A stretch of 36,019 bases of DNA, from the NCBI GenBank assembly GCA_025451785.1, contig JANWJV010000075.1:1-36019 (forward strand), in the 5' to 3' direction. Below, one piece after another: positions 4,216 to 34,838 of the stretch. The translations under genes were made by a program, and so were the position numbers. The first letter of the stretch is position 1, and every line of letters starts with the position of its first letter. The stretch is from Bacteroidia bacterium. Lineage in GTDB: Bacteria; Bacteroidota; Bacteroidia; JANWJV01. The notes under the pieces are model-generated. The model did not search any database, was not told where the DNA came from, and saw only the letters and a program-made list of their open reading frames with translations.

Positions 4216-4218
4216 CAC

Positions 4219-4259
4219 TTAAATCCTAAATCCTAAATCCTAATTCCTAATTCCTAATG
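4219..4259. repeat. Period-7 array ending in the gcvT start codon
   Basis: Heptamers ttaaatc, ctaaatc, ctaaatc, ctaattc, ctaattc and ctaatgg keep one register. The last unit contains the ATG of gcvT, so the 5' untranslated region and the start codon are built from the array. No Shine-Dalgarno sequence is present. Confidence 0.85.
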
Positions 4260-7149: not shown

Positions 7150-7754
7150 GTAGGTTTCTGAAGTATTTCTTGATCTCTCTGACACTGCTGATAGTTGTCT
7201 ATCTCGTCTTCTTTAGCTCCCGTTATCCACTTAAGTACATCGTTCACTCCATCAATGTTGGCGATTCACTCGACTCATTTAACGATGTGGTGGTTTATAA
7301 CAACGGTACGCAGTACGCGAAGAGTCACGGCAAGCATTACGCGAAGGACAGCGCTTATTATTACGGTAAAAAGTGGCAGTGCGTGGAATTCATAAAACGT
7401 TATTATTACGACCACTACAATTATAAATTCCCCGATGGTTCAGGACACGCTAAGGATTTCTTCAACAAGGACCTTGACGGTGGTGCTCTCAATAAACGCC
7501 GGGGTCTTTTGCAATACAGGAACGCTGGCAATGTGGCTCCCAAAGTAGGAGATATCCTGGTGTTCGACGGAAGCTTTGGCCATGTGGCCATTGTTACGAA
7601 AGTGGAGGAGGAGAGCCTCGAGGTGATCCAGCAAAACATCTATATGCGTCCCCGCCAGGAGTTCTCGCTCAAAAAGGAAAAAGGTGATTACTTTGTTGGG
7701 CTGGGCGATAAAGAACCCCTTGGCTGGCTGCGCCTTGCAGCTTCTTCTCAATGA
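7146..7754 (+). CDS. Membrane-anchored CHAP-domain amidase/peptidase
   Basis: A 202-residue protein with one N-terminal transmembrane segment (about residues 7-24) and a CHAP (NlpC/P60-like) domain. The catalytic cysteine is C79 in KKWQCVEFIKRYY; the histidine is H146 in GDILVFDGSFGHVAIV, followed by the usual LEVIQQN strand that normally holds the polar third residue. CHAP enzymes cleave peptidoglycan amide bonds or glutathionylspermidine-type amides. The WQCVEF form resembles the amidase half of glutathionylspermidine synthetase/amidase and related envelope enzymes. The start is GTG 7146 (MRRFLKYF). The stop overlaps the next ATG by 4 nt (ATGA), indicating coupled translation with the CHAT-like protein. 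Confidence 0.85.
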   Translation: MRRFLKYFLISLTLLIVVYLVFFSSRYPLKYIVHSINVGDSLDSFNDVVVYNNGTQYAKSHGKHYAKDSAYYYGKKWQCVEFIKRYYYDHYNYKFPDGSGHAKDFFNKDLDGGALNKRRGLLQYRNAGNVAPKVGDILVFDGSFGHVAIVTKVEEESLEVIQQNIYMRPRQEFSLKKEKGDYFVGLGDKEPLGWLRLAASSQ

Positions 7755-8443
7755 AACAAAAGATCTCCGCAGCGCTAATTGCCTTTTGCCTGTTTGCCCT
7801 TTGCCTGTTTCTCATTGGCTGGCTATCGGACTCACCAAGGAGCATCGTCACACCGGCTAACCGCGCCAGCACCGCTGCCATTGCCATTCGCGACAATGTA
7901 ATTCCCTTTCAGAAGTTCGGAACGCGTCTCTTTACATTGCCCTATCTTGAAAAGTGTTACAACGAGGTAAGTTATTTCACTCAAAGCGGCCGCCTCGATA
8001 AGAAAGAAGAGTTCATCGCTGCCCTCGATTCCTTGCTGGGCAAATACAAGAGCGTCGATATTTTCCTTCTTGCCCATGCGAACTCTTATCACCGATGGCT
8101 GAACGATCTCCCGGAAGCGAAACGGGAACACATCCGCTTGGTATACAATACCGGCTGCGGCAGCAGCAGTCAATGTGCCGACTGGCTTACGCTGGGCGCA
8201 AAGGCCTACGTGGGTCATCCGGGCGAACAAAGTATTTCGCCCGTGTTCTATTTTTTCTTTTTGAGAAGATGGTCGGCAGGAGAGAAGTTGCAGGATGTGA
8301 TCAGGGAAAGCAATGAACTTATGCTCTCAAAGATGAACCGCATCGGTAACCTGAGCTTCGGCTTGTTATGTCCTGAAACGCAGGATATTATTGACTCGCA
8401 AGCCATTTGTTTTGGTGATAGCACGCTAAGTATTGACAATTGA
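7751..8443 (+). CDS. Membrane-anchored protein with CHAT/caspase-like His-Cys pattern (function unknown)
   Basis: A 230-residue protein with one N-terminal membrane segment (residues 5-24). I do not recognise a named family. The middle contains a hydrophobic strand ending in histidine (VDIFLLAHANSYHRW, H109) and a second strand ending in cysteine (IRLVYNTGCGSSSQ, C136). A WLTLGAKAYVGHPGE segment follows, then an aromatic helix and LQDVIRESN. This order of strand-His, strand-Cys, 'GA..YVG' strand and a helix with 'F...W..G..L' is the one seen in clan CD peptidases, notably CHAT domains. The His-Cys spacing (27 residues) is shorter than usual, and the glycine after His is replaced by alanine. 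It is translationally coupled to the CHAP amidase upstream, so envelope or peptidoglycan-linked proteolysis is a reasonable guess. Confidence 0.45.
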   Translation: MKQKISAALIAFCLFALCLFLIGWLSDSPRSIVTPANRASTAAIAIRDNVIPFQKFGTRLFTLPYLEKCYNEVSYFTQSGRLDKKEEFIAALDSLLGKYKSVDIFLLAHANSYHRWLNDLPEAKREHIRLVYNTGCGSSSQCADWLTLGAKAYVGHPGEQSISPVFYFFFLRRWSAGEKLQDVIRESNELMLSKMNRIGNLSFGLLCPETQDIIDSQAICFGDSTLSIDN

Positions 8444-14301: not shown

Positions 14302-14323
14302 GCTTATACTTAAGTGTCTTTTG

Positions 14324-14344
14324 CCTACTGCCTACTGCCTACTG
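14324..14344. repeat. Three exact cctactg heptamers
   Basis: Three identical 7-bp units lie directly downstream of the ABC transporter stop (on the minus strand). The same heptamer recurs at 26778-26805 and 33695-33708. Confidence 0.85.
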
Positions 14345-14346
14345 GT

Positions 14347-17300
14347 TTACGCCCTCTTCTTGCCGATCCTGCTGAACAGTTCCTCCAGCAGGTTGATGAA
14401 CTTCTTCAGTACATCAAAGTACAGGGTGATGGCCATTACGAGCGACATGGCCCAGATCACAAAGATGTTCACCCAGAAGGTGTCGAAATAGGTTCCGAAG
14501 ATCTTCTTCTGCGCGGCGAAGAAATGCGCCCTGCCAAGGTCGTAGCTCACCGGGTCGTAGAACACCGGGTCGGCACGCTGAATAAGCTCACCGTCCTTCT
14601 CCAGGATCTTGTCGAGCTCATTATGGTTGCGCACCAGGTCCGAAAGGCTTTCGTTCTCGTAATCGTTCTTCTCCTTGATAAAGGCCTCCTTCTCTTCGTT
14701 GCTCTCGTTCCTCGACGATACGATCTTATCTTTCGCGTTGCTGGCGTTATTGTACTTCTTAATGTAATAGCTGTTAAGATCGGTCAGGTAATCCCTTATC
14801 TTATTGGCAAGGCTCGCGCTGAACTTACCGGCAGCAAGACTGTCGAGATCGCCGAACTTCACCACCTTCACCAGGCTGGTCTCTTTCTTCAGTTCGCTTT
14901 CCATGAGCTTCAGGTCTGCCTTAACCTCTTCCTGCGCGTTCTTGTCGCTCAGGTTGGTCTCGCACTTGTCTACCTTGGCCCTCAGTTTGGGTATCCAATA
15001 GTTCTTCTTGAAGTCGGATATGCTCATATCCTTATCGTACTTAAAGAAGTTCTTTTCGTATTTGTTGTTCTTGAACTGGTTGATGGCCAGCGCCTCGAAT
15101 GCCCAGCGGGAAGCCATGATCTCGCCGGCGAACGGAACGGTGTTCTGCGAGGTGATGGCAGGGTTCAGCTTATCGAACTTCACAATAACACCGCTGAGCA
15201 GCAGCTGGGGAATGATAAGGAAGGGGATAAGGATATAAATGGTAACGGCCGAATTGAAGCTCGCTGAAATATTAAGGCCTAGCATGTTTGCGAAGCAAGA
15301 GGTGGTAAACAGCACCAGCCAGTAATCCAGCATCATGCCCTTGATCTCAAGCACCCAGTTGCCGATAAGGCAGAACATAATGGTTTGGATGGCAGAGAGC
15401 ACGAACATGATCGTGATCTTGGAAAGCAGGTAGCTGCTGCGGCTCAGGTTAAGGAACGATTCCCTTTTCAGGATCTTCCTGTCGCGGATGATCTCCTCGG
15501 CGCTTACAGTAAGGCCGATGAAGAGCGCCACCACCACCGACATGAACAGGTAGGCCGGCATGTTCTCGTTCTCACGGAAGATATAACCCGTTTTGTTAGA
15601 GATGTCTGTATTGTAGAACTTCACCAGGTAACTGAGGATGAAGGCCAGCAAAGGCGCTTCAATAAGGTTGATGCTGAGGTATTGTTTGTTGGTAAGCTTC
15701 GAAAGCACGTCGCGGGTGATAAACACTTTGAACTGCTTCAGCTTATTGGGGATCCGGAAGGTGCTTTCAGGGATATCGCCGGTAGTGACGTTGGCGTCCA
15801 CCTTGGGCTCTATTACTTCCTTGTAATGCTTGTTCCACTCAGCAGGGGATATCTTCCTGTTAAGAGTAAGGTTACCGTATTCGTCCAGTACCTTCGACTC
15901 AATGATATTGAATATCTGTTCGGGATTTACGTTACCGCACTCATGACACTCGCTTTGGTCGCTGTTGATATGGTTAACGATCTTCTTGAAATAGATAACC
16001 GCGTCAACGGGGTTGCCGTAATAGATCGGGTAACCGCCCACGTCGAGGATCATCAGCTTGTCGAACATCTTAAAGATCTCCGACGAAGGCTGGTGGATCA
16101 CCACGAACACGAGCTTGCCTTTCAGGGCCAGTTCCTTCAACAGGTCCATGATGTTTTCTGAGTCCCTCGACGAAAGGCCCGAAGTAGGTTCGTCAACGAA
16201 CAGTACCTGCGGCTCACGGATAAGTTCCAGGGCGATGTTCAAACGTTTACGCTGTCCGCCCGAAATGGTCTTTTCCAGGGGGCTGCCCACCTTCAGGTCG
16301 CGGGTCTCCAAAAGGCCGATGCTGGTAAGCACCTCCAGCACCAAGGTGGTGATGGCCTCATCCTTCAGGTTGCCGAAACAAAGTTTGGCGTTATAAAAAA
16401 GATTCTGAAATACCGTAAGTTCTTCGATCAGCAGGTCGTCCTGCGATACGTGGCCGATCACACCCTCTATCTGGTCCTTCTGGGTATGGATGTTCTTGCC
16501 ATTGATGAGAATTGCGCCTCCGCTTGGAACCTCATTGCTGTTAAGTACGTTCAGCAGCGTTGATTTACCAGCGCCTGAGCCGCCCATGATGCCGATAAGC
16601 CTGCCGGAGTCCTCCGAAAAGTTGATGTCCCTTAATCCCAGCTTGCCACCCTTGAACTTGTACTCCACGTTCTTCACTACCAGAGAGATCTTTGATTTCC
16701 CTTTGTCGCTCATGAAGGTGCCGATGATATCGCTGTAATAGATCGGTTTTACCTTGGAGCTGCGGATGGAAGAGCCCTCGGTGAGGATGTAAACCTTACG
16801 GGGTGTGATGATCTGTCCGTTCAGCAGCAATTCGCTGGTGCCGAAGTACTGGATCACGTACATGGTCACGCTCGGGATGTGCAGCACCCGCATCTGGCCG
16901 GTGATGTTCTCCGAGTAAATGTGTTTTGTTTGTGTATAGGGATTGCTGGGGCTGTTGTCAACCACCAGTATCCTGTTCGATTCAGGGACCTTGGTCTCTG
17001 AATCCTGGATGAACTCCTTGCAAAGATGGAATTCCTCGTTGTCAATGTTAAAGGTTTCCGCCACCGTTTGCACGAACTCCAGCTCCTGCTCAGAGATCTC
17101 GTTGCTGGAATGGATGAACTCCAGCAGACGCACCAACACTACTGCCTTCTGCTTTTGTGTAAGTTCCGAGTTGATCTGGGTACAGATCTTCAGCACCTTT
17201 ACCGAGTTGAGGGAGGTTCTCTTCTGAGAGCCGTCCTTTTTCTTGGAAGTTTGGTGGTGGACCTCCAGGAATTCGTCAAATATCTTGAGGTATTGCTCAA

Positions 17301-17427
17301 CAAGTTCTTCGTTAAGCAGCCCGCGGAGGAAGGTTTGCACAATGCCCCTGCTCGAGCTGGTAACGCCATCTACCTTCGCGATGATAGCGAAGAGCTGCAT
17401 AAGGGCCTTTAATATCCGCTCACTCAT
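14347..17427 (-). CDS. TerB-ABCG-type ABC transporter fusion
   Basis: A 1026-residue ABC half-transporter with unusual extensions. Residues 1-145 are helical and resemble a TerB-like domain (AIIAKVDGVTSSSRGIVQTFL). Residues 175-240 are beta-rich and FHA-like. The ATPase is of the ABCG/White type: Walker A GGSGAGKST (about 282-290), signature ISGGQRKRLN, Walker B VLFVDEPTSGL and switch VVIHQPS. A CHECGNVNPEQ linker with a CxxC pair follows, then an ABC2-type membrane domain (about 600-760). Before the final membrane helix a roughly 170-residue charged, coiled-coil-like loop is inserted. The last helix ends in a basic tail. The substrate is unknown; lipids or surface glycans are common for ABCG relatives. 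ATG 17427 is the first start, with no clear -7 element upstream. Confidence 0.88.
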   Translation of the reverse strand: MSERILKALMQLFAIIAKVDGVTSSSRGIVQTFLRGLLNEELVEQYLKIFDEFLEVHHQTSKKKDGSQKRTSLNSVKVLKICTQINSELTQKQKAVVLVRLLEFIHSSNEISEQELEFVQTVAETFNIDNEEFHLCKEFIQDSETKVPESNRILVVDNSPSNPYTQTKHIYSENITGQMRVLHIPSVTMYVIQYFGTSELLLNGQIITPRKVYILTEGSSIRSSKVKPIYYSDIIGTFMSDKGKSKISLVVKNVEYKFKGGKLGLRDINFSEDSGRLIGIMGGSGAGKSTLLNVLNSNEVPSGGAILINGKNIHTQKDQIEGVIGHVSQDDLLIEELTVFQNLFYNAKLCFGNLKDEAITTLVLEVLTSIGLLETRDLKVGSPLEKTISGGQRKRLNIALELIREPQVLFVDEPTSGLSSRDSENIMDLLKELALKGKLVFVVIHQPSSEIFKMFDKLMILDVGGYPIYYGNPVDAVIYFKKIVNHINSDQSECHECGNVNPEQIFNIIESKVLDEYGNLTLNRKISPAEWNKHYKEVIEPKVDANVTTGDIPESTFRIPNKLKQFKVFITRDVLSKLTNKQYLSINLIEAPLLAFILSYLVKFYNTDISNKTGYIFRENENMPAYLFMSVVVALFIGLTVSAEEIIRDRKILKRESFLNLSRSSYLLSKITIMFVLSAIQTIMFCLIGNWVLEIKGMMLDYWLVLFTTSCFANMLGLNISASFNSAVTIYILIPFLIIPQLLLSGVIVKFDKLNPAITSQNTVPFAGEIMASRWAFEALAINQFKNNKYEKNFFKYDKDMSISDFKKNYWIPKLRAKVDKCETNLSDKNAQEEVKADLKLMESELKKETSLVKVVKFGDLDSLAAGKFSASLANKIRDYLTDLNSYYIKKYNNASNAKDKIVSSRNESNEEKEAFIKEKNDYENESLSDLVRNHNELDKILEKDGELIQRADPVFYDPVSYDLGRAHFFAAQKKIFGTYFDTFWVNIFVIWAMSLVMAITLYFDVLKKFINLLEELFSRIGKKRA

Positions 17428-18958: not shown

Positions 18959-20158
18959 ATGGGAGAGGGTAAAAAAGCCACATTTTCAGCTGATTACAGG
19001 ATGACAGCCAAGACCCTTTTTGGCCTGGAAGAGGTGTTGGCCTCCGAACTGCTCAAGCTGGGCGCTAAAAACATCGAAAAACACAATCGTGCCGTGAGCT
19101 TTACCGGCGACAAAGGCTTTATGTACAAAGCCAACCTTTGCCTGCGTACCGCCCTCCGTATCCTGGTCCCCATCAGCACCTTCAAGGTAAAGAACGAGGA
19201 AGACCTTTACAACAAAGTGAAAGAGATCGACTGGGAAAAGCACATGAGCGTGCACGATACCCTTGCCGTTGACTGCGCCCTTAACTCCGAGCTTTTCAAA
19301 CATTCGCAGTTCCTGTCGCAAAAAACAAAAGACGCCATTGTGGACCAGTTTCGTGATAAGCACGGAAAGAGGCCCTCGGTCGACCTGGAACATCCATCGC
19401 TGCGCATCAGCCTGTTCGTATACAAAGATACCTGCATTGTTTCCCTTGATAGCTCCGGCGAATCGCTGCATAAAAGAGGCTACCGCGACAAGACCAACCT
19501 GGCCCCACTCAACGAAGTGCTGGCAGCAGGCATGATCATGCTTAGTGGTTGGGAACCGCACCTCAGTTTTGTGGACCCCATGTGCGGCTCCGGTACACTA
19601 CTCATTGAGGCGGCTCTCATCGCCGCCAATATTCCTCCCGGATACTACAGGGAAGAGTTTGGCTTTGAGCGATGGAAGGATTTTGATAAGGAGCTCTGGG
19701 ATACGATCGTTGATGGCTGCCTGGGCCGTATCAGCAGCCGCGACGCAAGGATACTCGGTACCGATATCTCCCGCAACGTGGCCCGCAAGGCCTATGAGAA
19801 CGTTCACCTGGCCAAGGTGGAAGATACAGTGGTGGTGAAAACATCGGGCTTTACTGACCTGGAGGCCCCTGCCGAAAAAGGCACGCTTATCCTGAACCCT
19901 CCTTATGGTGAGCGTATGGACAGCGAGGACATTAATGCCCTCTATAAGTCTATTGGCGATACGCTTAAAAAGAATTGGAAGGGTTACGACGCCTGGATCA
20001 TTACGTCCAATATGGAAGCGGTGAAGCATATCGGGCTTCGTCCTTCACGTAAGATAATGCTTTACAATGGTCCTCTTGAATGCCGCTTCTTGAAATTCTC
20101 CATGTACAGCGGCACAAAAAAGATACACAAGCTCACTGATCAAAAATCTAAAATCTAA
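18959..20158 (+). CDS. THUMP-domain class I RNA methyltransferase (RlmL/YcbY N-terminal type)
   Basis: A 399-residue SAM-dependent enzyme of the UPF0020 family. The N-terminal ferredoxin-like and THUMP domains (about residues 15-165, GLEEVLASELLKLGAKN onward) bind RNA. The methyltransferase domain has the SAM motif DPMCGSGTLLIEAALIA and the catalytic LNPPYGERM. In E. coli the equivalent half of RlmL makes m2G2445 in 23S rRNA, so a base N2-guanine rRNA modification is likely. The start is ATG 18959, with the promoter 4 nt away; M15 (19001) is an alternative if a leader is required. The last residues (QKSKI) are encoded by a heptamer array. Confidence 0.9.
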   Translation: MGEGKKATFSADYRMTAKTLFGLEEVLASELLKLGAKNIEKHNRAVSFTGDKGFMYKANLCLRTALRILVPISTFKVKNEEDLYNKVKEIDWEKHMSVHDTLAVDCALNSELFKHSQFLSQKTKDAIVDQFRDKHGKRPSVDLEHPSLRISLFVYKDTCIVSLDSSGESLHKRGYRDKTNLAPLNEVLAAGMIMLSGWEPHLSFVDPMCGSGTLLIEAALIAANIPPGYYREEFGFERWKDFDKELWDTIVDGCLGRISSRDARILGTDISRNVARKAYENVHLAKVEDTVVVKTSGFTDLEAPAEKGTLILNPPYGERMDSEDINALYKSIGDTLKKNWKGYDAWIITSNMEAVKHIGLRPSRKIMLYNGPLECRFLKFSMYSGTKKIHKLTDQKSKI

Positions 20159-20190
20159 AATCAACAATCCCTATTCCTCATTATCTTTGC
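20142..20190. repeat. Period-7 array bridging two genes
   Basis: Units aaaaatc, taaaatc, taaaatc, aacaatc, cctattc, ctcatta and tctttgc keep one register. The left end encodes the last codons and stop of the methyltransferase; the right end makes the -7 element of the aminotransferase gene. Confidence 0.8.
20182..20189 (+). promoter_or_regulatory. -7 promoter element (TATCTTTG) of the aminotransferase gene
   Basis: A perfect TAnnTTTG match, 5 nt before ATG 20195, formed by the last two units of the heptamer array. Confidence 0.7.
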
Positions 20191-25094: not shown

Positions 25095-26312
25095 ATGTTA
25101 AAGTACATTTCTCTCCTTTTAATCACAGCCATCGCCCTTGTTTCATGCAGTAAGTTAGTGCCCCCCGAGCCGGCCCCCGAAGAGGTGCTGGCAGGCACCG
25201 TGCCTGGCCTTACACAAGCCCAGGAAAAAGAACACCTGGTAGGGGATGCTTTCTTCGGCAAAGTGTTCGGCACGGCCGACGGCCTTGGTCCCGTGTTCGT
25301 GCAAACGACTTGCTCCAATTGTCATGTAGGCAATGGCAAAGGACATCCTTCCACCATGGTGACACGTTTCGGTAATAACCAGGGAAGTGCATTTGATTAT
25401 CTGAATAATAAAGGAGGAGCCCAACTGCAGCCCAGGGCCATCGCGGGCTATGTGCCTGAATACCTTCCTTCAGAAGCGAACGTAATTACCCGCAGGCTGG
25501 CGCCCATCGTCATGGGGCTTGGCTATATAGCTGCCCTCAGCGACCAAAGCATTTTGGCCAATGCCGATTCAGCCGACCTTAACGGCGACGGCATTTCAGG
25601 AAGGCCTTGTTATGTTGATCCTTCCTCCTTCTTTATCCCTCAGTCCTTTCATATTCCCAATAACGGGAAATACATCGGCCGTTTCGGAAAAAAGGCAGAG
25701 AAGGTAACGCTCCTCGACCAGGTGGTGTTTGCCCTCAAGCAGGACATCGGTATTACTTCCGACTTTGATCCGCAGGATATTTTTAACCCTCTTTCAGGTA
25801 ACTTTACCGGCGACCAGGTGGCTGATCCCGAAGTGAGTTCGTATGTGGTGAACAGCCTTGTGTTCTATATGCGTACGCTCAAAGCGCCCGAGCGCCGAAA
25901 CGCGGAGGACCCTGATGTTAAGGAAGGCGAAAAGCTCTTTGGTCAGATAGGCTGCGAGAGTTGCCATAAGCCTGACCACGTAACTGCCGTATCTGACATT
26001 GAAGCGCTCAGCAACAAGACCTTTCATCCCTTTTCTGATTTTCTGTTGCATGACATGGGCCCCGCGCTCGACGACGGTTATCCCGAAGGCGGCGCGGCAA
26101 GCAACGAGTGGAGAACACCGGCATTGTGGGGATTGGGCTTAGCAGAGACCACCCAGGGCGGCAAAATGTTTTTGCTTCACGATGGCAGGGCAACAGGCAT
26201 AGAGCAAGCCCTGAGCTTCCACGGAGGGGAGTCGCAGAACGCGCGTAACGCGTTCTTTACCCTCTCTGAAACGCAGCGGAAGCAGGTCATTAAATTTCTA
26301 ATGTCACTTTGA
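25095..26312 (+). CDS. Di-heme oxidoreductase (DHOR family) lipoprotein
   Basis: A 405-residue periplasmic c-type cytochrome. The signal ends in lipobox ALVSCSK (C18). Two heme-attachment motifs are visible: CSNCH at 73-77 and CESCH at 287-291. A DLNGDGISG loop (161-169) resembles a calcium-binding loop. The arrangement matches the DHOR ('thiol oxidoreductase' or putative peroxidase) family, whose members in other bacteria often lie in iron-regulated clusters. The exact reaction is not established. It leads an operon divergent from mntR-mntH: its TGA overlaps the Rieske ATG by one base, and the Rieske stop overlaps the porin ATG by four. It probably moves electrons at the periplasmic face during metal handling; this last step is inference. 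Confidence 0.85.
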   Translation: MLKYISLLLITAIALVSCSKLVPPEPAPEEVLAGTVPGLTQAQEKEHLVGDAFFGKVFGTADGLGPVFVQTTCSNCHVGNGKGHPSTMVTRFGNNQGSAFDYLNNKGGAQLQPRAIAGYVPEYLPSEANVITRRLAPIVMGLGYIAALSDQSILANADSADLNGDGISGRPCYVDPSSFFIPQSFHIPNNGKYIGRFGKKAEKVTLLDQVVFALKQDIGITSDFDPQDIFNPLSGNFTGDQVADPEVSSYVVNSLVFYMRTLKAPERRNAEDPDVKEGEKLFGQIGCESCHKPDHVTAVSDIEALSNKTFHPFSDFLLHDMGPALDDGYPEGGAASNEWRTPALWGLGLAETTQGGKMFLLHDGRATGIEQALSFHGGESQNARNAFFTLSETQRKQVIKFLMSL

Positions 26313-26743
26313 TGAGCACACGAAGACAATTTCTCAGAACAGGAGGCACCCTCGCTGTGGCTTGCGGGGCCGGATTAATGGGAGCATTGCTCGAAAGCTG
26401 TGGCTCCGCTAAGACCATTACAGCAGTTTCATCGGGCGATAAGCTCATGGTAAAACGTTCGGACCTGGAAGGAAGCAAAAGCTTTGTAGTGGTTCGCGGC
26501 GCTCCCGCCAACTTGCCTGCTGATATTTACCTGCTGGAAGAGGCGGGCAAGTTTACAGCCCTGCCCATGCTTTGCACGCACAAAGCATGCGACCTGAAGC
26601 CAACAGGAAAAACACTTACCTGCTTTTGCCACGGCAGCGAATTCTCCTCTGTTGGCAAAGTGCTTAAAAGCCCCGCTACTGTTGACCTGCAACCTTACAA
26701 AGTAACCACCGACGATACTTCGATCTACATCCATTTGAAATGA
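26312..26743 (+). CDS. Rieske [2Fe-2S] protein with Tat signal
   Basis: About 143 residues. The N-terminus STRRQFLRTGG is a twin-arginine signal followed by a hydrophobic stretch, with a possible lipobox at LLESCGS. The Rieske ligands are present as CTHKACDL (C and H) and CFCHGSEF (C and H), spaced as in small soluble Rieske ferredoxin-like proteins. The folded cluster protein is therefore exported to the periplasm by Tat. The frame also contains a TTG at 26309, but ATG 26312, overlapping the upstream TGA, is the natural start. With a di-heme cytochrome before it and a porin after it, it looks like an electron-transfer partner of the cytochrome and not part of a bc1 complex, whose cytochrome b is absent. 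Confidence 0.9.
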   Translation: MSTRRQFLRTGGTLAVACGAGLMGALLESCGSAKTITAVSSGDKLMVKRSDLEGSKSFVVVRGAPANLPADIYLLEEAGKFTALPMLCTHKACDLKPTGKTLTCFCHGSEFSSVGKVLKSPATVDLQPYKVTTDDTSIYIHLK

Positions 26744-27942
26744 AAAAAACACTCCTGTATTTTGTCTATTCTCTATTGCCTACTGCCTACTGCCTACTGC
26801 CTACAAGTTCTTACTCGCAGCAGGATAGTTCCTCCTCCTCCCAAAACGCCATCTACAACCGCCCCTTTATTTCGCTGGGAAAAACAAATACCGCTGTAGG
26901 CGGATACCTCGAAGGCAATACCAATTACTTTTCTGAAGATGGTGTTACTGAAGGATTCTCTATGGAGCTCAGGCGCTTCAATATATTTCTCTATTCACGA
27001 ATTCATGAGCGCATAAAGTTTATTTCGGAGCTGGAATTCGAACATGGTACTGAGGAGATCGCGCTGGAGACCGCCTTGCTTGACTTTGAGTTCCATCCCG
27101 CTTTCAACCTGAGGGCAGGTATTCTGCTGCCGCAGATCGGCCTGGTGAACGCCAATCACGATTCCCCCAAATGGGATTTTGTAGAACGCCCCATTTCCTC
27201 CACCGCCATTATTCCTACCACACTTTCAGAAGTGGGTGTGGGATTCCACGGTAAGTTTTTTTCAAACGCGGGAACAGTGGCCTATGACGTGTATCTCATG
27301 AACGGCTTGCAGGACGGGATCATTCTCAATGAAGAGGGCAGGACCCACCTTGCCAGTGGAAAGAACCCCGAAATGTTCGGGGAGGATAACAATGGTGTTC
27401 CTATGTTCAATGCCAGGCTGGCCTTTTCTAACAGCAAGTTGGGCGAGATCGGTCTTTCATGGTACGGCGGGGTTTATAACAGCTTTCGCCTGGATGGAGT
27501 AGAGGTGGATGCTAAAAGAAAGCTTTCGCTTACAGCCTTTGACCTTAGCACCGCTATACGCAAGCTGAAGATACAAGGCGAACTTGCGTTTGTGAAAATA
27601 CAAGTACCCGAGGGCTTAGAGGAGTTGTACGGAACAAATCAGTACGGTGCCTTCCTCGAATTGGGCCATCCTATTCTGAAAAAGAAAATGCTTGGCTTTG
27701 AGGACGCGCAGCTCTCAGTACATCTCCGTGCTGAAAAGGCAGACTTTAACCAGGGCACTTTTGTTTTTGATGGGTCTAAAATTGGAGATGAGGTAAGCGC
27801 TCTTTCATTTGGCCTTAGCTGGAGGCCTCTTGCCGGATCGGTGATCAGGGCTAACTACCGGTACCACTGGATCTACGATTTTTTCGGGAATCCTCCCGCG
27901 CACCTTGGAGGCATACAAGTGGGTATCGCCACTTATTTTTGA
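26740..27942 (+). CDS. Outer-membrane beta-barrel porin (phosphate-selective porin O/P-like)
   Basis: A 400-residue outer-membrane barrel. The signal peptide is followed by a Gln/Ser-rich mature start and alternating beta-strands, and the chain ends in aromatic ATYF, the usual barrel C-terminus. Segments such as GGYLEGNTNYFSEDG, SMELRRFNIFLYSRIHERIKFISELEFEHG and LRAGILLPQIGLVN are typical of the OprO/P-like porins of Bacteroidota. ATG overlaps the Rieske stop (ATGA), so it belongs to the redox operon. It may admit or export the operon's substrate, plausibly a metal complex. Residues 9-22 of the signal peptide are encoded by a heptamer array, giving a 7-residue repeat LLPTAYC / LLPTSSY. Confidence 0.85.
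   Translation: MKKTLLYFVYSLLPTAYCLLPTSSYSQQDSSSSSQNAIYNRPFISLGKTNTAVGGYLEGNTNYFSEDGVTEGFSMELRRFNIFLYSRIHERIKFISELEFEHGTEEIALETALLDFEFHPAFNLRAGILLPQIGLVNANHDSPKWDFVERPISSTAIIPTTLSEVGVGFHGKFFSNAGTVAYDVYLMNGLQDGIILNEEGRTHLASGKNPEMFGEDNNGVPMFNARLAFSNSKLGEIGLSWYGGVYNSFRLDGVEVDAKRKLSLTAFDLSTAIRKLKIQGELAFVKIQVPEGLEELYGTNQYGAFLELGHPILKKKMLGFEDAQLSVHLRAEKADFNQGTFVFDGSKIGDEVSALSFGLSWRPLAGSVIRANYRYHWIYDFFGNPPAHLGGIQVGIATYF
26764..26805. repeat. Period-7 array inside the porin signal-peptide codons
   Basis: Units gtctatt, ctctatt, gcctact (three times) and gcctaca keep one register over 42 bp within the coding sequence. Because 7 and 3 are coprime, three units make a 21-bp, 7-codon protein repeat. Confidence 0.9.
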
Positions 27943-33680: not shown

Positions 33681-33708
33681 TTTCTTAGTTTCTTTGCCTA
33701 CTGCCTAC
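33681..33708. repeat. Period-7 array between pntA1 and pntA2
   Basis: Units tttctta, gtttctt, tgcctac and tgcctac occupy most of the 45-bp gap within the operon. The gcctact heptamer is shared with 14324-14344 and 26778-26805. Confidence 0.7.
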
Positions 33709-33710
33709 TG

Positions 33711-34838
33711 TTACGCAGTCTGCGCTTTCTTCACACTCGGATGAACAGCATCTCCTTTGAAAACAATAAGACTTCCTTTGGTGATCTCTTCTTCCATCTC
33801 CCATTTGAACTTGTCCTTGTCAGCAAGGTGGAGGAGGAGGGTCTGGATATTTTTCGCGTAAAGATCGCTGGCGTTCATGGGAAGGAGTGAAGGGATATTT
33901 CCTTCGCCGATAATGGTGGCGCCGTGTTTTTGTACGGTCTTATTGAGCTCGCTTCCCACCACGTTACCGCCTTGTTCCACTGCCATATCAACGATCACGG
34001 AACCGAAGCGCATGCTCTTTACCATATCATCGGTTACCAATAAGGGGGCTTTCTTTCCCGGAATGAGCGCGGTGGTGATCACCACATCCGCTTCCTTCAC
34101 GTGTTTGGCAACAAGTTCTTGTTGCATCTTGAGGAACTCTTCCGAAACGCCTTTCACATAGCCGCCTTCTATCTTGATGGAGGCATCACTTTTTACCACA
34201 ATGAATTTTCCGCCGAGGGATTCCACTTGTTCTTTTGTCTCAGGACGGATATCGGTCACTTCCACCACAGCGCCCAAACGTTTCGCGGTAGCAATGGCCT
34301 GGAGGCCCGCTACGCCCGCACCAAAGATCACCACTTTGCAGGGACGGATGGTTCCGGCGGCGGTGGTCATCATGGGAAGGATCTTTCCAATGGTATCAGC
34401 AGCCATCAGCACAGCTTTATAGCCGGCCAGGTTGGCTTGCGAGGAGAGGGCATCCATTTTCTGGGCCCTGGAGATACGCGGTACTGCGTCCATGGAGAAG
34501 GCAGAGATACCGGCCTTTTCGCAGGCGCTCACCATTTCAGGATTAGTTGCAGCCCAAAGGAAAGAGATGAGGATCGCTTCTTTCTTCATTTTAGCGATCT
34601 CGGCAGGCTGAGGGGCGTTTACTTTCAATACCACATCGGCATCAGCGTACACTTTATTGCTGTCGCAAAGCTGTGCACCGGCGGCAGTATAGGCTTCATC
34701 GGAGAAAAAGGAGTTCATTCCTGCGCCATTTTCTACCAGCACTTCAAATCCTTTCTTAACCAGGTCCTTTACCACATCGGGCGTAAGCGCCACACGGTTC
34801 TCTTTCAGCTTTGTCTCTTTCGGAACTGCTAATTTCAT
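33711..34838 (-). CDS. pntA1: NAD(P) transhydrogenase subunit alpha, NAD-binding part (PntA1)
   Basis: A 375-residue soluble domain I, related to alanine dehydrogenase. It has the N-terminal PKETKLKENRVALTPDVVK, the VVIFGAGVAGLQAIATAKRLGA Rossmann loop and the mobile-loop segment DVVITTALIPGKKAP. It binds NAD(H) and docks on domains II and III of PntA2/PntB at the inner membrane. It leads the operon. The best promoter candidate is a one-mismatch -7 element (TACTTTCG, minus strand, 34882-34889), about 43 nt upstream. Confidence 0.96.
   Translation of the reverse strand: MKLAVPKETKLKENRVALTPDVVKDLVKKGFEVLVENGAGMNSFFSDEAYTAAGAQLCDSNKVYADADVVLKVNAPQPAEIAKMKKEAILISFLWAATNPEMVSACEKAGISAFSMDAVPRISRAQKMDALSSQANLAGYKAVLMAADTIGKILPMMTTAAGTIRPCKVVIFGAGVAGLQAIATAKRLGAVVEVTDIRPETKEQVESLGGKFIVVKSDASIKIEGGYVKGVSEEFLKMQQELVAKHVKEADVVITTALIPGKKAPLLVTDDMVKSMRFGSVIVDMAVEQGGNVVGSELNKTVQKHGATIIGEGNIPSLLPMNASDLYAKNIQTLLLHLADKDKFKWEMEEEITKGSLIVFKGDAVHPSVKKAQTA

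Follow-up and report, generated by a model that had tools for sequence, protein, structure and literature searches.

Part of the signal peptide of a porin-like protein from a member of the Bacteroidia is encoded by a tandem array of 7-bp units, and arrays of the same kind lie between genes elsewhere on the same contig. The locus raises the question, already posed in a first-pass annotation made from the sequence alone, of whether non-coding repeat DNA has become an export signal, whether the true start of the gene lies elsewhere, or whether gain and loss of units could act as a switch for the porin. The window, i.e., the whole stretch of 36,019 nucleotides analyzed here, corresponds to contig 75 in a draft genome of 3.04 Mb (G000; 172 contigs, 84.6% complete), which its relatives and its proteins, among them some with T9SS sorting tails, identify as that of an uncultured member of the Bacteroidota.

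The array and the start of the porin-like gene

The porin-like gene (26740–27942, plus strand, open reading frame from ATG 26740) encodes a precursor of 400 amino acids that matched no Pfam family. An AlphaFold2 model calculated with 33 orthologues is a β-barrel with a mean pLDDT of 86.8, an N-terminal helix (residues 2–18) and a subsequent low-confidence stretch (residues 17–31), and the top Foldseek matches are the porins VhChiP, OprP, OmpT, and PorB, with TM-scores of about 0.5–0.6 and E values of about 1e-12 for VhChiP and OprP. We regard the protein as a predicted outer-membrane β-barrel; the term porin is a statement at the level of the fold, and pore and substrate are putative. Two genes precede it on the same strand, one for a di-haem oxidoreductase/cytochrome c family protein (25095–26312) and one for a Rieske-type protein (26309–26743), the stop codon of which overlaps the porin start (ATGA). 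The three genes probably form an operon, with the di-haem oxidoreductase gene in first position.

The array was delimited by inspection of the sequence, Tandem Repeats Finder and a pattern search with shuffled controls. It occupies positions 26764–26805 on the plus strand, corresponds to codons 9–22 and consists, in the gcctact register, of GTCTATT, CTCTATT, three times GCCTACT, and GCCTACA. Six gcctact-type units encoding residues 9–22 had been proposed in the first-pass annotation; while array and position are borne out, only three units are exact and one is near-exact, and units 1 and 2 (from 26764 on) are degenerate, with two and three mismatches, respectively. Tandem Repeats Finder reports 4.6 copies with 96% matches (26773–26804), and the pattern search, allowing up to three mismatches, returned 12 matches compared to 2.07 expected and a maximum of six in 100 shuffles. 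The seven-residue peptide repeat that had been read from the array (LLPTAYC/LLPTSSY) holds in part: exact repetition is limited to LLPT, and the remaining residues differ.

The putative Sec signal peptide, MKKTLLYFVYSLLPTAYCLLPTSSYS (26740–26817, plus strand), is followed by QQDSS in the precursor. Judged by eye and by comparison with orthologues, it has the predicted anatomy of an MKK n-region, a hydrophobic core and a SYS-QQ end, and is probably cleaved after residue 26, before QQ (QQDSSSSSQNAIYNR). We read the N-termini encoded at about 95 related loci; a collection of named genomes contributed 75 of these. True orthologues carry ordinary Sec signal peptides in the same place that end in ..A/S-Q (e.g., MKTRIILFIFALFGVNAFA-Q and MKKWLIGSVCFIFGVSASA-Q), and L032, at 67% identity the nearest relative found, has no array either. 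The first-pass annotation had considered that relatives might have a non-repetitive signal peptide that starts at another codon; non-repetitive these signal peptides are, but the codon from which they start is the equivalent one. Their median length in 17 clear orthologues is 19 residues compared to 26 in the window porin, and the surplus of seven residues equals three heptamers. The ordinary signal peptides at the same place and the lack of an array in L032 argue that ATG 26740 is the correct start, that the signal peptide as such is ancestral and that the array is a lineage-specific addition.

TGCCTAC arrays in the source genome and beyond

The unit is by no means confined to the porin gene. 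The exact 14-mer TGCCTACTGCCTAC occurs 51 times in the genome, its reversed control not once, and about 38 dispersed TGCCTAC arrays were counted when up to three mismatches per 21 bases were accepted. About 28 of these lie outside signal peptides, nearly all of them between genes or at gene ends. They include the two intergenic copies in the window that had been noted at 14324 and 33695 and that Tandem Repeats Finder places, both on the plus strand, at 14322–14344, beginning 4 nt past the stop of the minus-strand gene 14347–17427, and at 33695–33710, immediately past the stop of a minus-strand alanine dehydrogenase/PNT alpha gene (33711–34838). About 17–18 arrays lie within 12 nt of the stop of an opposite-strand gene or include that stop codon. 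On its sense strand, TGCCTAC is translated into the same stop-free hydrophobic cycle, CLLPTAY or (LLPTAYC)n, in all three frames; on the opposite strand it reads VGSRQ*A, with a stop in every frame. Translation of the two strands thus explains both the sense placement in signal peptides and the antisense placement at 3′ edges of genes. Besides the window copies at 14322 and 33695, the repeat was seen in opposite orientation directly past stops at L110:3915, L125:3959, L126:365, L129:3979, and other sites, and in several opposite-strand genes the stop codon itself is supplied by the repeat. Long sense open reading frames that run through intergenic arrays (e.g., window 14314–15267) were discarded because they shadow genes encoded on the opposite strand.

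TGCCTAC is one of several heptamer families in this genome. In a 758-kb sample made up of contig starts, which served for rates and, the window apart, excludes array-bearing contigs, so that TGCCTAC arrays were not counted from it, we found 17–19 arrays of period 7 and no more than four each of periods 5, 8, 10, 11, and 13. The TGCCTAC arrays are a known kind of dispersed heptameric repeat and resemble the short tandemly repeated repetitive (STRR-like) sequences. TAACTGA heptamers of this type occur in Beggiatoaceae, Cyanobacteria, and five Bacteroidetes (PMC4679880) and G-rich heptamers in Xanthomonas and Nostoc (PMC4692102), and coding copies are described at protein edges. TGCCTAC shares with them a 7-bp unit in short tandem arrays, tens per genome and mostly intergenic, as well as a strand with stops in all frames and an opposite strand that encodes an open cyclic peptide. 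What differs is the unit itself and the fact that a quarter of the copies in G000, and most of those in a distant genus designated g16, reside in signal-peptide cores, a placement that PMC4679880 and PMC4692102, as far as consulted, do not report. A literature search for heptamers in signal peptides of Bacteroidota yielded the TAACTGA paper alone, and the TGCCTAC repeat or its translation was not found in a relevant context.

In G000, 10 of the about 38 arrays encode the predicted cores of signal peptides in exported proteins that are unrelated to each other; every one of the ten is in frame and in the sense orientation. Apart from the porin (window 26764–26805), these are a TonB-receptor-like protein (L107, MRSLALKLLCLLPTAYCQLSFS-Q), a sortilin-like protein (L109, MKKFILPLIAYCLLPTLSNS-Q) and a Kelch protein (L113), both with a T9SS tail, a LolA-like protein cut by a contig end (L121), a GDSL lipoprotein (L128, ...AYCLLPTALLFS-C), and the proteins encoded at L117, L124, L193, and L194. 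The inferred +1 residue is glutamine in eight of the ten and a lipobox cysteine in one. From the share of signal-peptide DNA in the genome, 0.95 such arrays would be expected (P about 2e-8, or 3e-11 when sense orientation alone is counted). Signal peptides were assigned by visual inspection and with a crude filter rather than a trained predictor, and the gene caller was crude as well; since the filter labels 36% of genes as signal-bearing, the enrichment is conservative. The density of arrays in signal-peptide DNA (0.13 per kb) is about equal to that in intergenic DNA (0.15 per kb). Averaged over all signal peptides, lag-7 autocorrelation is not in excess, and lags 6 and 9 are raised, i.e., such DNA is to some degree inherently repetitive. 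Unlike in the mean autocorrelation, the excess of period 7 is visible when discrete arrays are counted: period-7 arrays in signal peptides are rare and not a general property of such sequences.

When 395 genomes of the class were searched for ATGAA a short distance ahead of an array, true signal-peptide cases came to light in three species of g16, and in two further species of this genus 7 of 10 arrays lie in signal peptides, including those of a PorP/SprF-like protein and a lipoprotein. The heptamers at a given site vary between species: the signal peptide of an OmpA-like lipoprotein of g16 contains, depending on the species, TGCCTAC, TGTCTAC-like, TGCTTAC-like or TTCTGTA units or no heptamers, and the same kind of variation is seen in a peptidyl-prolyl isomerase (PPIase). 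In genome G060, the signal peptide of a LolA-type protein (L170:1454-2200) is about 41 residues long and composed of units from two heptamer families (ATTCGTC and TGCCTAC); the orthologue of this protein in G000 (L327) has an ordinary signal peptide of 19 residues. The placement of arrays in signal peptides has recurred independently in g16. No clear case was seen among 16 arrays in G001 and 22 arrays in G012, both array-rich genomes, and tolerance alone therefore does not account for the difference between lineages. In G001, TGCCTAC arrays were also noticed in frame in genes for a histidine-kinase-like protein (L137:2132) and a [2Fe-2S] oxidoreductase-like protein (L139:2298).

Passenger or switch

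Heptamer repeat and signal peptide are each ordinary; it is their repeated combination that is unusual. The array in the porin gene most probably belongs to a dispersed, STRR-like heptanucleotide repeat, one copy of which has come to lie in frame in the core of a Sec signal peptide, as a tolerated passenger and not as an evolved switch. The best reading of the pattern as a whole is that the repeat persists where its translation is tolerated and that signal-peptide cores are one such niche. Arrays may arise and expand genome-wide by a process with a 7-bp period, such as slippage or template switching, and would be retained only at sites that tolerate the encoded peptide or the supplied stop. 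As the core of a signal peptide should require little beyond hydrophobicity and should tolerate changes in length, gains of three units would be nearly neutral and the porin would remain exported, so that the passenger would by now be part of the export signal. The earlier suggestion that a secretion signal was recruited from non-coding repeat DNA is supported, and the phenomenon proves to be general, given the ten signal-peptide arrays among about 38 and the normal signal peptides of orthologues at the same place. Rickettsia palindromic elements offer a parallel: they, too, occur in intergenic DNA as well as in frame within unrelated proteins, at positions where they are tolerated, but they are much longer, palindromic, not composed of heptamer arrays and not known to favour signal peptides.

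The arrays are natural, repeated examples of how repeat DNA may turn into working protein sequence. A 7-bp repeat that yields the same peptide from all three frames fits any reading frame and still gives a hydrophobic core, and signal peptides appear to carry TGCCTAC at about the density of non-coding DNA, which would make export signals a measurable niche for repeats. About 20 natural cases with a 7-bp ruler make it possible to test directly how much change in length signal peptides tolerate, how new signals are gained and whether phase variation occurs.

An alternative that we consider unlikely is phase variation, in which slipped-strand mispairing would add or remove single heptamers and thereby put the reading frame of the porin, and possibly of the other exported proteins with arrays, in or out of register, turning expression on or off. 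In Haemophilus influenzae, 7-bp tandem repeats are likewise located near a surface-protein gene, hmw; these lie upstream of the coding sequence and act on the level of expression, and the porin array is translated. The design under this alternative is exactly that of Neisseria opa, in which (CTCTT)n is a translated repeat located in the signal-peptide region (PMC3960869, PMC13183285, PMC3899988). Opa and the porin gene share a non-triplet tandem unit in the signal-peptide-coding region, near the start of a gene for an outer-membrane protein, the arrangement is common to ten exported proteins of G000, and the frame arithmetic of the first-pass annotation is correct (7 mod 3 = 1). The porin array, however, is a heptamer and not a pentamer, is short, with about four good units only, and belongs to a repeat that occurs in many unrelated genes instead of one family, is also dispersed outside genes and mostly sits where no frame can shift. 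Neither variation nor an OFF state was seen for TGCCTAC: all 20 signal-peptide arrays in six genomes (G000 and the g16 species) are in frame, and a search for out-of-frame arrangements among them found none, with one consensus genome per species and the nearest relatives of the source species belonging to other families. A constant frame is likewise what simple purifying selection yields, and the genes concerned include unlikely contingency genes (for LolA-like, Bat-operon, and, in g16, PPIase proteins). The phase-variation device that had been envisaged thus finds no backing in these arrays. An apparent OFF state at L194, suggested by a nearby out-of-frame ATG, was discarded since another ATG, at L194:2917, is in frame. 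The signal peptide encoded at L312, for which no start was obvious at first, proved to be in frame with a longer n-region.

We deem it quite unlikely that the array originated locally, by slippage of the signal peptide's own Leu/Ala/Thr-rich codons, its likeness to the dispersed repeat being convergence. The raised lags 6 and 9 in signal-peptide DNA and the different heptamers at the same site in different species would fit such an origin, but the identical unit is present in ten unrelated signal peptides and at about 28 other places in the genome, a period of 7 does not correspond to codons, the mean lag-7 signal of signal peptides is not raised, and no arrays form at other periods. Very unlikely in our view is a genome-wide contingency system in which at least 12 unrelated exported proteins (porin, TonB-receptor-like protein, T9SS substrates, lipoproteins) would flip independently and intergenic copies would seed new switches. 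That the start is wrong, the array being non-coding leader DNA with translation beginning downstream, is highly implausible: the majority of TGCCTAC arrays do lie outside coding sequence, but downstream of the array the conserved mature part is reached without any start codon, signal peptides of orthologues run from the equivalent ATG, the porin start overlaps the upstream stop, and the same arrangement exists in nine other genes, all of which speaks against the notion that the true start lies elsewhere.

Other heptamer families and further repeats

Returning to the tolerated passenger, other heptamers appear to be sorted by the hydropathy of their translation. A second hydrophobic family, CATTATA/CATTAAC, forms signal-peptide cores in G000 (L315:1494 and L319:1487; MKKILLTLTIIHYTLTMAAQ and ...NPIIHYTLTIIHAQ). 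Heptamers of other units with a hydrophilic translation lie in frame inside conserved enzymes, at loop-like positions and with small insertions (L210:3398, L211:851, L206:2295, L215:18965, L186:17027, and L240:3510; PyrD, MqnA, rRNA methyltransferase-like and Mfd-like proteins, and others). Compared with solved structures, the array-encoded segment carries an insertion of two residues in PyrD and of four residues in MqnA. Although small in number, these hydrophilic arrays at insertion points support tolerance of the encoded peptide as a filter on array sites.

Within the window, Tandem Repeats Finder detected two further heptamer arrays on the plus strand, one of TAAATCC units that fills the spacer between two genes (4217–4257) and one of ATCAAAA/ATCTAAA units that spans the end of gene 18959–20158 (20138–20169). 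Near the contig end (35894–35934), a stretch of 17 C that passes directly into 24 A is possibly an assembly or sequencing artefact. At 7779–7810, a 15-bp tandem repeat, TTGCCCTTTGCCTGT, encodes the N-terminal hydrophobic stretch MKQKISAALIAFCLFALCLFLIGW of open reading frame 7751–8443.
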